From Pseudomonas neustonica (GTDB lineage Bacteria > Pseudomonadota > Gammaproteobacteria > Pseudomonadales > Pseudomonadaceae), in assembly GCF_003797945.1 (NCBI RefSeq), contig NZ_RKKU01000017.1, forward strand, positions 1 to 64,000: DNA of 64,000 nucleotides, given 5' to 3'. The translations under genes were made by a program, and so were the position numbers. Within the stretch, counting starts at the first letter, position 1. Each line of letters starts with the position of its first letter. The notes under the pieces were generated by a model. It was not told where the DNA came from, searched no databases, and saw only the letters and a program-made list of their open reading frames with translations. Positions 61,210 through 64,000 of this stretch are shown one piece after another.

Positions 61210-62268
61210 TCAGCGCAGCCGCTGCGCGGCACTAAGCAGCGCATCTTCTGTAGCACTCCAGCCAAGGCAGCCATCGGTAATGGAAACGCCATAGCGCAGT
61301 TCCGGCGAAAGCGGCTGGCAACCATCAAACAAATGGCTCTCCAACATGATGCCTCGCAGACTATCCTGCCCGGCCAAGCGCTGACCAATGACCGCCTCCA
61401 ATACCGCAGGCTGTTGCAGCGGGTTCTTGCCACTGTTTGCATGGCTGCAATCCACAATCAAGCCTGACTGAATACCCTGGCTGCGCAGCGCCGTCACGGC
61501 CGCCTGCACCGACTCCGGCTGATAATTCGGCCCACCGTGTCCACCACGCAACACCAGGTGCGTATCCGGATTCCCGTTAGCCTGTATAAGCGCTGGATGC
61601 CCATGATCATCCACACCAAAGTACTGATGTGCATGCGCGGCAGAGCGCATCGCATCACACGCAATAGTGAAACCACCATCAGTGCCGTTCTTGAAACCCA
61701 CCGGCAAATCAAGCCCGCTAACCAGTTCGCGGTGAACCTGGGACTCACTGGTACGCGCGCCAATTGCCGCCCAGCTCAGCAGGTCATCCAGATACCCGGC
61801 AGCTAATGGCTGCAACAACTCGGTCGCTACTGGCAAGCCCAGCTCGGTAATGCCAAGCATCAAGCGGCGTGACAGCGCCAAACCTGAAGCCATATCGCCA
61901 CTGCCATCGAGTTGCGGGTCGTACATCAGCCCCTTCCACCCTACGGTGGTGCGCGGCTTCTCAACATAGGCCCGCATTACCAGCAGCATCTGATCGCCAA
62001 CTCGGGATGCCAAATTGGCCAGACGCTCAGCATACTCGAGCGCGGCATCCGGATCGTGTAGCGAGCACGGGCCGGCAATCACCAGCAGCCTGGGGTCATC
62101 GCCCTGCATGATGGCGCGTATGGCTTCACGGCCATATTTTACCGTCGCTAAGGACTGGGCACTGGCTGGCATACGGGCACGTAATTGGGCGGGCGTTGGC
62201 AGAGGTTGAGCAGAGCGCAGGGCAGAGTTGGGCGCAACAGGGGTAAGAGCGGTAACAATGGCATTCAT
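61210..62268 (-). CDS. aroF: Class I 3-deoxy-7-phosphoheptulonate (DAHP) synthase
   Basis: A 352-residue AroF/G/H-type enzyme making DAHP from phosphoenolpyruvate and erythrose-4-phosphate, the first step to Phe, Tyr and Trp. Motifs: VIAGPCSLHDPDAALEYA, RAYVEKPRTTVGWKG, GFKNGTDGG, LRGGHGGPNY and DCSHANSGK; the metal ligands Cys (PCS), His and Glu (LESHLFDG) are in place. A ribosome site AAGGAA lies ahead of ATG 62268. Upstream are two aromatic-rich leader peptides and a terminator. The isozyme type (Tyr-, Phe- or Trp-sensitive) cannot be told, so the symbol is a group name. Confidence 0.93.
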   Translation of the reverse strand: MNAIVTALTPVAPNSALRSAQPLPTPAQLRARMPASAQSLATVKYGREAIRAIMQGDDPRLLVIAGPCSLHDPDAALEYAERLANLASRVGDQMLLVMRAYVEKPRTTVGWKGLMYDPQLDGSGDMASGLALSRRLMLGITELGLPVATELLQPLAAGYLDDLLSWAAIGARTSESQVHRELVSGLDLPVGFKNGTDGGFTIACDAMRSAAHAHQYFGVDDHGHPALIQANGNPDTHLVLRGGHGGPNYQPESVQAAVTALRSQGIQSGLIVDCSHANSGKNPLQQPAVLEAVIGQRLAGQDSLRGIMLESHLFDGCQPLSPELRYGVSITDGCLGWSATEDALLSAAQRLR

Positions 62269-62308
62269 ATATTGGATTCCTTATTCGCGCGGCCAGGCCG
62301 CTGCGATT

Positions 62309-62410
62309 CTATCTGAGCGTTCGATGATCTGATGTTCGCTGCGTCGCAGCTGCATAGCTGAGTGACCAGTAACTGCAGAAAAATCCGTTAAAAGTGCGGT
62401 AGCTATTCAT
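62309..62410 (-). CDS. Second aromatic leader peptide before aroF
   Basis: A 33-codon frame (ATG 62410 to TAG) with a good ribosome site, AGAGGA eight bases ahead. It reads MNSYRTFNGFFCSYWSLSY before a hydrophilic tail: seven aromatic residues (three Tyr, three Phe, one Trp) in the first 19. It lies after the attenuator terminator and 40 bases before the aroF start. Its density of Phe/Tyr/Trp codons is that of an attenuation leader. Bases 62344-62350 can pair with 62300-62306, or a local hairpin (62289-62301) can form near the aroF ribosome site, so translational control is conceivable. Confidence 0.6.
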   Translation of the reverse strand: MNSYRTFNGFFCSYWSLSYAAATQRTSDHRTLR

Positions 62411-62443
62411 CTATAAATCCTCTTGAAAACTGAAAAAGCCAAT

Positions 62444-62477
62444 AAAAAACCCCGATCGGGAAGCCGACCGGGGTTTT
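62444..62477 (-). terminator. Attenuator terminator upstream of aroF
   Basis: On the minus strand AAAA CCCCGGTCGG, loop CTTC, CCGATCGGGG, then six T. It lies 47 bases after the stop of leader peptide 1 and before leader peptide 2, so it can abort transcription ahead of aroF. On the plus strand there is also a T run, but no gene ends there. Confidence 0.9.
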
Positions 62478-62500
62478 ACTGTTTCTCTGGTGGCGACCCG
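62457..62500 (-). promoter_or_regulatory. Predicted anti-terminator competing with the aroF attenuator
   Basis: CGGG (62500-62497) and GCCACC (62494-62489) can pair with CCCG (62460-62457) and GGTCGGC (62469-62463; one bulged C). This would break the terminator stem and its loop. A second competitor exists: the sequence UCGCCA (62496-62491) can pair with UGGCGA (62577-62572), just before the aromatic codons of leader 1. A ribosome stalled on those codons would cover that copy and so favour the anti-terminator. Pairings were found by eye. Confidence 0.55.
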
Positions 62501-62510
62501 TTTATAAAGG

Positions 62511-62532
62511 GCGCCTGTGGGGTATCAGGCGC
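62511..62532 (-). promoter_or_regulatory. Hairpin over the leader-1 stop codon (candidate pause site)
   Basis: GCGCCTG (62532-62526) and CAGGCGC (62517-62511) pair perfectly around an eight-base loop. The 5' arm overlaps the last codons and stop of leader 1. In known attenuators an early hairpin of this kind pauses RNA polymerase so that translation can catch up. Confidence 0.5.
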
Positions 62533-62656
62533 GCCTATGGCTAAACCAATACCCAAAATAAAAGTTTTCCATCGCCATCGCCAACAACGCACGCGACGCC
62601 GCAACGCGAGTAGCGCTGACGATCGAAGCAATGCAGATGGAAGACAGGGATGACAT
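62525..62656 (-). CDS. Aromatic leader peptide 1 (attenuation leader of aroF)
   Basis: A 43-codon frame from ATG 62656 to TGA, with GGAG seven bases before the start. The first 31 residues are bland (Ala, Ser, Val, Ile rich). Residues 32-38 are FYFGYWF, six aromatics in seven codons, followed by SHRRA. A pause-type hairpin, an anti-terminator and a T-tailed terminator follow in order, then aroF. A stalled ribosome on these codons would report shortage of any of Phe, Tyr or Trp. An inner ATG at 62578 would give a 17-residue form but lacks a ribosome site. Confidence 0.78.
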   Translation of the reverse strand: MSSLSSICIASIVSATRVAASRALLAMAMENFYFGYWFSHRRA

Positions 62657-62680
62657 AGAAATCTCCGTTTGATGAGGATA

Positions 62681-62710
62681 AATGTAGTCGATTGAGTACA
62701 GCCTTGGCAA
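62681..62710 (-). promoter_or_regulatory. Candidate promoter of the leader-aroF transcript
   Basis: On the minus strand TTGCCA (complement of 62705-62710), an 18-base spacer, and TACATT (complement of 62681-62686). Transcription would begin about 20 bases before the leader-1 ATG, a position suited to an attenuation leader. Only sequence match supports it. Confidence 0.5.
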
Positions 62711-62804
62711 CCTGACACTCAAAAACACCAATAACAGGGGCAGTTTTTATCGCTCAGCTGCTTAGCCTACTACCCCGCCAGACCACTTCATTGCTCGCCC
62801 GGTA

Positions 62805-64000
62805 TCACTTGCGTTTTGGCGGCGCCAGACCATCGGAGCTGGTGACAACCTGTCCCTCTGGAGGCCTGGAAGGACGCTTACCGGCCTTTGGCTTTTTCGG
62901 CCTGGACGATTTCTTCTTGTCATCCTTTTTCTTCTTGGCCCCTACCGGCTTGCCTGAAGACTTAACCTTCTTGGGCCCCTTAAAGCTACCCGGCACCTCT
63001 TTAAGAATTCGGCGCTCAAACTGACGACGCAAATAACGCTCGATACTGGACATCAGGTTCCACTCGTGTGGACTGATCAACGAGATAGCCAGACCGCTAG
63101 CACCAGCGCGCCCGGTGCGCCCAACACGGTGCAGATAATCATCGCCACTGCGGGGCATATCAAAGTTGATGACGCGATCCAGCTCGGTAATGTCCAAGCC
63201 ACGTGCGGCCACATCAGTGGCAACCAGCACACCACTTTGCCCCTGCTTGAAACGCTCTACCGCCATATTGCGATCTTTCTGATCCTTTTCGCCATGCAGC
63301 ACATAGACTCGCAGGTCCATAGCGCGTAGCACGCCATTCAGGCGATCCGCCGCCACACGGGTGTTGGTGAAAACGATGGTCTTGCCCTCGCCTTCGTTAA
63401 CCAGGAGCCACTTGAGCATCGCCTCCTTGTGGGCAGTGTCGTCCGCTGGCATCACCTGCTGCGCAATCGCTGGCGTGTCATCTCGCACGCTGGTTAGCTC
63501 AAGAATCTCGGGCTCACGCAACACCGAGTCGATCATGCGCTGCAGGCCACGGTTGCCTTTTGTCGCAGAGTAAAGAGCTGTCTGTCGCCCCTCCGGACAG
63601 GCATTGGCTAGTGTGGTGACGTCTTCACTAAAGCCCATGTCCAGCATGCGGTCTGCTTCATCCAGAACCAGGGTTTGTACACTGCCAAGATCAAGGTTAC
63701 CTGCAGAAAACTGCTCGAGTGCGCGGCCAGGTGTTGCTACCACGATATCCGGATTCTTGCGCAAGCGGGCAGCCTGAACCTTGAAGTCCTCGCCCCCAGT
63801 CACCAGCTCGGCCTTAAGGAAAGTGTATTTACCCAGAATATCAATATCCTTGACTACCTGCCGAGCCAACTCGCGAGTCGGCACCAGAATAAAGCCTCGT
63901 GGCGCCAAGGGTTTGGACTCATCGTGCAGTAATCGCTGCAGCAACGGCAAAACGAACGCAGCGGTTTTGCCACTGCCTGTCTGCGCAATGACATAAAGAT
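62805..64000 (-). CDS. DEAD-box RNA helicase (5' end beyond window)
   Basis: The frame runs off the window at 64000. From there it reads LYVIAQTGSGKTAAF, which is motif I, then PTRELA (Ia), VATPGRALEQF (Ib), VLDEADRMLDMGF (II, DEAD), YSATK (III, SAT), VLVATDVAARGLD (V) and DDYLHRVGRTGRAG (VI). The core is followed by a Lys/Arg-rich tail (VGAKKKKDDKKKSSRPKKPK) likely to hold RNA. It unwinds RNA duplexes; RhlE/RhlB/SrmB-like, exact member unclear without the N-terminus. The Q motif is outside the window. Confidence 0.92.
   Translation of the reverse strand, partial: LYVIAQTGSGKTAAFVLPLLQRLLHDESKPLAPRGFILVPTRELARQVVKDIDILGKYTFLKAELVTGGEDFKVQAARLRKNPDIVVATPGRALEQFSAGNLDLGSVQTLVLDEADRMLDMGFSEDVTTLANACPEGRQTALYSATKGNRGLQRMIDSVLREPEILELTSVRDDTPAIAQQVMPADDTAHKEAMLKWLLVNEGEGKTIVFTNTRVAADRLNGVLRAMDLRVYVLHGEKDQKDRNMAVERFKQGQSGVLVATDVAARGLDITELDRVINFDMPRSGDDYLHRVGRTGRAGASGLAISLISPHEWNLMSSIERYLRRQFERRILKEVPGSFKGPKKVKSSGKPVGAKKKKDDKKKSSRPKKPKAGKRPSRPPEGQVVTSSDGLAPPKRK

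Follow-up and report, generated by a model that had tools for sequence, protein, structure and literature searches.

The window, the whole 64,000-nucleotide stretch of Pseudomonas neustonica DNA that was analyzed, carries on its minus strand, in this order, a first leader reading frame (leader 1), a terminator, a second leader reading frame (leader 2), and aroF, the gene for a class I DAHP synthase (Table 1). The preliminary description of this DNA had listed a promoter-like site, both leaders, a hairpin over the stop codon of leader 1, the terminator, and aroF on one strand, and all of these are present as described. The C-terminal part of the leader 1 peptide reads ENFYFGYWFSHRRA, and seven aromatic residues fall within the first 19 of leader 2, the stop codon of which lies 40 nt before the aroF start. 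Across the six frames of the window, no 7-mer other than FYFGYWF contains six or more aromatics, and no Shine-Dalgarno-like start other than that of leader 2 is followed by seven or more aromatics in 19 residues. The promoter-like site alone is at chance level, with one found against 0.8 in shuffled sequences. By eye, a TTGnnn / TAnAGT-like pair is seen at a similar place before leader 1 in most of the 24 relatives' sequences inspected, of which L003 was mis-anchored and L160 absent. The small hairpin ahead of aroF is likewise present, by eye, in most relatives' sequences inspected. The terminator of the window was missed by the automatic terminator scan and is plain in the sequence.

Table 1. 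Features of the aroF leader region, in window coordinates
Feature	Position	Strand	Basis
DEAD-box RNA helicase gene, directly upstream	62805..63998	-	best NCBIfam match SrmB, below cut-off
Promoter-like TTGCCA - 18 nt - TACATT of the leader transcript	62681..62710	-	9/12 matches
Shine-Dalgarno GGAG of leader 1	62663..62666	-	sequence
Leader 1, 43 codons, MSSLSSICIASIVSATRVAASRALLAMAMENFYFGYWFSHRRA, ending in FYFGYWFSHRRA	62525..62656	-	ORF
Aromatic run FYFGYWF of leader 1, proposed sensor codons	62543..62563	-	relatives' alignment
Rfam RF00627 (P15 "sRNA") match	62449..62567	-	105.8 bits, E 2.4e-22
Segment A, GGGTATTGG, partner of B	62546..62554	-	consensus fold
Segment B, AGGCGCGCCTGATACCC, spanning the leader 1 stop; partner of A or C	62520..62536	-	folds
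Segment C, CAGGCGCCC, partner of B or D	62509..62517	-	folds
Segment D, GGGTCGCCACC, partner of C, or of E as antiterminator	62489..62499	-	pairing and f36 covariation
Segments E and F, intrinsic terminator CCCCGGTCGGC-TTCC-CGATCGGGG and T tract	62444..62477	-	14 pairs, -23.3 kcal/mol
Shine-Dalgarno AGAGGA of leader 2	62418..62423	-	sequence
Leader 2, 33 codons, MNSYRTFNGFFCSYWSLSYAAATQRTSDHRTLR, beginning MNSYRTFNGFFCSYWSLSY	62309..62410	-	ORF
Small hairpin GCGGCCTGGCCGC, past the leader 2 stop and ahead of the aroF Shine-Dalgarno	62289..62301	-	sequence
aroF Shine-Dalgarno AAGGA	62278..62282	-	sequence
aroF, class I DAHP synthase, 352 aa	61210..62268	-	TIGR00034 423.7 bits (cut-off 173.2), NF009395 493.7 (cut-off 343)

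Both reading frames are conserved in relatives. The best Shine-Dalgarno-ATG start of leader 1 is in frame with its core in 202 of 206 distinct relatives, despite varying distance. A Shine-Dalgarno-ATG start of leader 2 is in frame with a WRF core in all 172 distinct sequences having that core, at a start-to-core distance that ranges from 27 to 72 nt and is always a multiple of three. Because an earlier count of Phe, Tyr, and Trp was biased, leader 1 having been selected by a TAY TGG motif and leader 2 by its Trp (and the rows of one other family, f43, possibly being leader 1), these residues were recounted with leaders picked by Shine-Dalgarno start and place only, at the 212 AroF loci of Pseudomonadaceae that had sufficient upstream sequence. 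All three aromatics occur in the last 15 residues of leader 1 in 142 of 144 distinct Pseudomonadaceae sequences, and in leader 2 in 133 of 134. The exceptions are L016 and L161, with leader 1 picks that are seemingly out of frame, and L061, with a leader 2 that has no Trp; at five of the 212 loci (L060, L131, L159, L168, and L196), no leader 1 was picked, and a leader 2 was picked at every one. Up to its Trp, leader 2 has an aromatic share of 38% in frame versus 1.6% and 3.6% out of frame (126 distinct sequences), a less neutral comparison since these leaders had to hold Trp. Within the leader 1 run, Phe and Tyr interchange and the peptide before the run is variable; the tightest constraint in the leaders falls on nucleotides and codons. 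Both leaders combine a ribosome-binding site with richness in product codons, as does the short ORF of a his- or trp-type attenuator. The earlier suggestion that a mixed run lets one leader sense all three products of the pathway is upheld as to composition, Phe, Tyr, and Trp being found in nearly all leaders. In both leaders, the last Trp codon belongs to a near-fixed string, TGG TTT AGC in leader 1 (62548..62539, minus strand) and TGG CGA TTT AGC in leader 2 (e.g., L098 and L207).

The 3' half of leader 1 together with the terminator is P15, which the Rfam entry RF00627 catalogs as a Pseudomonas sRNA. The match scores well above the gathering score of 70 and spans the aromatic run of leader 1, the stop codon, the hairpins, and the terminator. 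Comparison with Rfam gave 10 matches up to E 10 at 61800-63000 of the window and 10 up to E 1 in L207, L247, L031, and L098, with no T box or TPP riboswitch in either set; such an element, or any other Rfam element besides P15, was rejected for want of a match. In the parts of the literature available, PMC2375449 lists P15 with the sRNAs of Livny et al., and PMC2527527 suggests a riboswitch role for P15 on the basis of synteny, its passages on P15 mentioning neither a leader peptide nor aroF. A term search of PMC2965389 and PMC3460626 did not return P15, and the passages retrieved from them give no aroF attenuator; in the passages of PMC4263517 and PMC7857532, PA1750 appears only as a protein or gene hit. 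The likely role of P15, so far catalogued as an sRNA, is that of the aroF leader RNA left by termination.

The distribution of the element follows that of the enzyme. A class I DAHP synthase match was obtained in 36 of 37 genomes of the genus, and P15 was found in 156 of 198 Pseudomonadaceae genomes, covering 14 of 19 genera, and in none of 14 control genomes. Both leaders are present at 118 of 120 loci (L001-L120), the other two (L017 and L029) being cut by contig ends, and AroF lies directly downstream at all 90 loci fetched by P15 alone (L031-L120). These genomes also encode another class I DAHP synthase, which shares about 47-52% identity with the window AroF. None of its 29 loci (L257-L285, one with only 132 nt upstream) has a comparable leader; the one Shine-Dalgarno ORF in which five of ten residues are aromatic is that of L265, in an AT-rich stretch far upstream. 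At the level of the order, no aromatic leader was found at 17 loci with a 47-51% DAHP synthase (L213-L229), and a leader is usual at identities of at least 53%, L209 (56%) and L210 (54%) being without one by the same criterion. Among the 20 P15-less Pseudomonadaceae genomes listed (22 more stand outside this list), 16 have only a 48-51% DAHP synthase; G019, G027, and G031 have a 54-55% AroF preceded by a single aromatic leader of another kind (WAWFGFGFYYRQSSGRLCFS), for the most part lacking a clear Shine-Dalgarno sequence; and G070 has a 61% partial AroF match. The two-leader element goes with the window-type AroF, and the second DAHP synthase is without it.

Beyond the family, a covariance model, R1, was built from 39 diverse sequences and matched 45 of 244 genomes of the order at E of at most 1e-3. 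Outside Pseudomonadaceae, matches better than 1e-7 occurred only in families f36, possibly Halomonadaceae, and f43, and the rest were weak. Class-wide, 4 of 274 genomes matched at 1e-5; G687 among them belongs to a different order, and there too the match lies before an AroF. Leader 1 is present at all 28 newly fetched f43 loci (L315-L342), and 26 of 29 f36 loci (L286-L314) carry an ORF in which five or more of ten residues are aromatic; in L291 and L293 the runs are shorter. The leader 2 core was found in 28 distinct f36 sequences and in only 4 distinct f43 sequences; since 5 f36 loci and 31 f43 loci are without it, leader 1 is the more widespread part.

Two alternative sets of helices are predicted for the RNA of leader 1. 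An alignment of 39 sequences less than 93% alike (A1) was drawn from 117 P15 segments of the 120 loci, the segment motif being missing in L017, L029, and L104. RNAalifold folded these sequences into A:B, C:D, and E:F, with 97.2% of cells paired versus at most 58% when the pairing was slid and with three pairs changed on both sides, none of them in C:D. E:F, which has the form of an intrinsic terminator, is 99.3% paired with two doubly changed pairs. In A:B, L024 has the compensatory GGATAT:ATATCC; this helix accounts for only part of the fixed TGG TTT AGC string. The alternative set, B:C and D:E, is 92.2% paired versus at most 52% slid, with a covariation of 0.093 versus 0.050 in shuffled alignments; its two doubly changed pairs, both in B:C, are not above shuffles in these 39 Pseudomonadaceae sequences, and D:E is 98.9% paired, nearly invariant, and without a double change.

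More divergent sequences were available from f36, where 30 distinct attenuators were aligned of 35 tried (L309 and L312 had no terminator found, and three duplicates were dropped). Despite this divergence, D:E is kept (GGGTTGCC:GGCAACCC, GGGCTGCC:GGCAGCCC, and GTGCTGCC:GGCAGCAC), with 91.6% of cells paired and a covariation of 0.167 versus 0.069 shuffled and at most 0.096 slid. Pairing of E with D would exclude the terminator, and D:E is evolutionarily kept, as expected of an antiterminator. B:C has at least 8 pairs at 27 of the 28 f36 loci scored (35 tried), and the expected B:C helix, again with at least 8 pairs, is found at 25 of 28 in 10 distinct sequence pairs (such as GGCGTGCC:GGCACGCC, GGTGTGCC:GGCACACC, and GGTGCGCC:GGCGCACC); L294 and L301 pair differently. 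Taken one by one, most loci do not reach significance against shuffles (0.02 to 0.26), so the support for B:C in f36 comes from compensation between loci. The preliminary description had looked to upstream sequences of relatives for a conserved run and compensatory changes, and the comparison yielded both: the aromatic run is kept, A:B and E:F carry compensatory changes, and D:E covaries in f36.

In the window, the helix energies are -8.3 (A:B), -11.8 (C:D), -17.2 (B:C), -12.5 (D:E), and -23.3 (E:F) kcal/mol. Folding was predicted for a nascent RNA ending before F, with the ribosome taken to reach about 12 nt past the A site. Masking 20-34 nt, as by a ribosome in the aromatic run, gave B:C and D:E; masking 36-48 nt, as by a ribosome at the stop codon, gave C:D; and masking 50-52 nt gave D:E again. 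The best fold without a ribosome is also B:C and D:E. Across 107 distinct segments, energy alone gave D:E for a stalled ribosome in 100 (first codon) or 93 (last aromatic), and for a ribosome at the stop codon also in 56 (edge +12) or 61 (edge +9), leaving a clean switch in 37 of 107. A purely thermodynamic switch is therefore unsupported across relatives. Since C:D and D:E are about equal in energy, A:B and C:D would have to win by forming first for the model to hold. With this provision, the layout of leader 1 is consistent with a six-segment transcription attenuator of the his type.

Leader 1 and leader 2 are not equivalent, because only leader 1 is tied to the terminator. The preliminary description had put aroF under the control of both leaders and an attenuator; conservation, reading frame, and covariation support leader 1 as an aromatic-sensing attenuator, and leader 2 would have to work in a different way. 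No second terminator was seen between the first terminator and aroF. Lying beyond the terminator without one of its own, leader 2 probably acts on the translation of aroF. Its stop codon lies 15-49 nt (mostly 37-48 nt) before aroF in Pseudomonadaceae and 2-45 nt before it in f36, often 2-11 nt, so that leader 2 has the conserved frame and the stop close to the gene that characterize a translational attenuator. Most relatives have a WRFS core in leader 2. It is missing from the window copy and likewise from the near relatives L002 and L003; in the window, leader 2 retains its start, its frame, and seven aromatic codons. Of 156 distinct leader 2s chosen for W-R-[FYL], 153 encode the Arg by CGA and 155 have TTT as the next codon, while the codons neighboring the TGG CGA TTT core are variable. 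Over the first 100 codons of the aroF genes at the same loci, CGA accounts for 3.1% of Arg codons. By eye, a second rare CGA codon lies near the end of leader 2 (CGA ACA C.. or CGA TGT) in many sequences, such as L037 and L246.

Between the core region and the aroF start region, at least six Watson-Crick pairs are possible in 39 of 123 distinct cases, versus 6% of shuffled sequences and 11% of a coding control. These cases come mainly from Stutzerimonas, Azotobacter, P. nitroreducens, and a small number of further lineages. When G-U pairs are counted too, the share is 52% versus 31% shuffled and 48% in the coding control, and the mean duplex energy is -12.0 versus -10.8 and -11.5 in two coding controls and -9.0 shuffled. 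Masking the core cut the cost of opening the aroF start by over 1 kcal/mol in 51 of the 145 sequences from Pseudomonadaceae (controls 21 and 23), in 4 of 28 f36 sequences (controls 5 and 7), and in 0 of 4 f43 sequences; in the window copy, masking the core region does not free the aroF start. Pairing of the core with the aroF start as a general feature was accordingly rejected, being close to the coding control once G-U is allowed, confined to some lineages, and absent from the window copy.

Overlapping helices, CGGTCGG:CCGACCG and GCCACC:GGTGGC, lie 18 nt past the start of the Trp codon of leader 2 in two groups, one comprising L031-L036, L047, L058, P. capeferrum, and P. cichorii, and the other f36. 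They are 95.0% paired versus at most 53% slid (46 sequences), with a covariation of 0.134 versus 0.103 shuffled; sliding by +3 gives 0.103 as well, and more cells are then doubly changed. In 21 of the 46 sequences one pair is open, and compensations occur in L290 and L299. These helices could form an H-type pseudoknot or two alternative hairpins. Beside one helix arm there is an anti-Shine-Dalgarno-like CACCTCC or CGCCTCC (L031:1723-1790(+), L207:1334-1401(+), and L290:2630-2697(-)). Frameshifting at the core before a pseudoknot was rejected, no slippery sequence being seen by eye. A search of both strands of 39 Pseudomonadaceae genomes with the 12-nt core TGGCGATTTAGC gave 37 matches in 22 genomes. 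In 13 of them (G025, G043, G044, G046, G049, G050, G051, G052, G058, G065, G066, G067, and G071), the single match is the leader itself, so there is no perfect 12-nt trans partner there; some others have scattered matches, and partners that pair only in part may exist.

We consider it likely that this two-leader attenuator sets AroF output according to the supply of charged Phe-, Tyr-, and Trp-tRNA. Its first stage, attenuation at leader 1, is well supported as far as sequence comparison goes, and the response to amino acids is what we infer from it. RNA polymerase would start upstream of leader 1. When charged aromatic tRNA is short, a ribosome would stall in FYFGYWF and cover A; B would then pair with C, leaving D free for D:E, the terminator would not form, and aroF would be transcribed. 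With ample supply, the ribosome would reach the leader 1 stop codon and cover B, so that C:D and E:F form and transcription ends; the short terminated product would be the RNA catalogued as sRNA P15. In the second stage, which we infer as a whole, messages that read through would be translated through leader 2, again needing Phe, Tyr, and Trp. In Stutzerimonas, Azotobacter, and some others, the leader 2 core has the potential to base-pair with the ribosome-binding region of aroF, which a ribosome stalled on the core would then uncover.

For the two stages together, one reading, to which we give a little less than even probability, is that the same three charged tRNAs are tested twice, by transcription attenuation and then by a translational attenuator at the codon-locked WRF (TGG CGA TTT) with a downstream pseudoknot or aroF-start pairing, the P15 RNA being a by-product. 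It is rather unlikely that leader 1 attenuates while leader 2 is no sensor and instead provides ribosome cover against Rho or RNases or couples translation to aroF. Sequestration of the aroF start by the core is not general, the f36 stop codons 2-11 nt before aroF would be ideal for plain coupling, the core is missing at the 31 f43 and 5 f36 loci noted above, and L288, L292, L296, and L307 have a single leader only, all of which would suit such a role; however, Phe, Tyr, and Trp are all present in 133 of 134 distinct sequences and the core is codon-locked, neither of which a neutral coupling ORF would require.

Returning to charged tRNA as the signal, stalling by a nascent arrest peptide that reads free aromatics or metabolites appears improbable: the FYFGYWFS-like and WRFS peptides are conserved, as an arrest peptide would be, but Phe and Tyr are swapped within the run, the peptide before it varies, and nucleotides and codons are constrained most strongly. 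We give still less credence to P15 as a trans-acting small RNA with aroF a mere neighbor. Its catalog entry and its naming in PMC2375449, so far as the available text goes, are those of an sRNA, and some leader RNAs or peptides go on to act in trans, as the available text of PMC7298713 describes for peTrpL; against this stand the AroF gene directly downstream at 90 of 90 P15-fetched loci, the P15-less genomes listed (of 20, 16 with only the 48-51% enzyme, three with another leader, and one with the 61% partial match), and the coding frame, aromatic run, and antiterminator, which point to a role in cis. Finally, the helicase gene ends at 62805 on the same strand, and the ORFs might be chance frames around its terminator; conserved frames, aromatic content, and a run unique in the 64-kb window refute this reading almost completely.

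Leader-peptide attenuators are familiar from the his, trp, pheA, and ilvGMEDA operons of enterobacteria, and the his attenuator follows a six-segment A-F logic. The element before aroF shares with them a translated leader rich in end-product codons, alternative helices, an intrinsic terminator, and a biosynthetic gene downstream, and with his also the six-segment layout. It differs in carrying codons for all three aromatics, before the gene for the first common step, and in being followed by another leader past the terminator. The preliminary remark that each such leader usually senses one amino acid needs qualification, since the ilvGMEDA and thr leaders are exceptions. Two successive checks, on transcription and then on translation, are also made in the Bacillus subtilis at (rtpA) operon, where the same tRNA is read by a T box and then by a Trp-codon leader peptide; that system concerns one amino acid, has a T box at stage 1, controls a regulatory gene, and belongs to a Gram-positive bacterium.

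Attenuation of DAHP synthase itself is not new, having been reported in Corynebacterium and proposed elsewhere. In the passages available, PMC11802643 describes trp, pheA, and pheST attenuation, and, with PMC4046766, the C. glutamicum aroR leader (Phe-Tyr-Phe), which attenuates the DAHP synthase gene aroF and for which Phe limitation matters and Tyr limitation does not. The likeness lies in an aromatic leader peptide before a DAHP synthase gene; aroR differs in belonging to another phylum and in responding to Phe and not Tyr, and those passages mention no Trp or second leader. The available part of PMC8632094 presents the uORFC-13-1 motif before aroF of Acholeplasma, a uORF with a Phe codon before a terminator for which attenuation was proposed, and cites an old proposal for E. 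coli aroF; as presented there, the motif differs in being confined to Acholeplasma and environmental sequences, with at least one Phe and no tandem leader described. A predicted Shewanella aroF element appears in the available text of PMC2659441. No prior report of tandem leaders, of the identity of P15, or of the codon-locked core and pseudoknot-like element of leader 2 was found in the open-access literature searched, and as far as that literature reaches, these three are new. The arrangement suggests how one leader may read a branched pathway whose first common enzyme serves three end products. It is also a case, open to testing, in which attenuation of transcription would be followed by attenuation of translation, with conservation across more than one bacterial family and with a codon-fixed RNA core; if the proposal is true, starvation would be proof-read in two stages at the entry of a branched pathway. 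Control of DAHP synthase is relevant to the production of aromatics in Pseudomonas chassis.

Two minor observations concern the spread of aromatic leaders. At L212 and L253-L256, a different single aromatic leader of the WAWFGFGFYYRQSSGRLCFS type, with its own terminator, stands before the 53-56% AroF type. Both this leader and its AroF occur in another family as well as in certain members of the window's genus, a pattern that suggests replacement of the gene by transfer. At L363, the locus of G687 in another order, a P15-like attenuator accompanies an aroF about 60% identical, perhaps also acquired by transfer.
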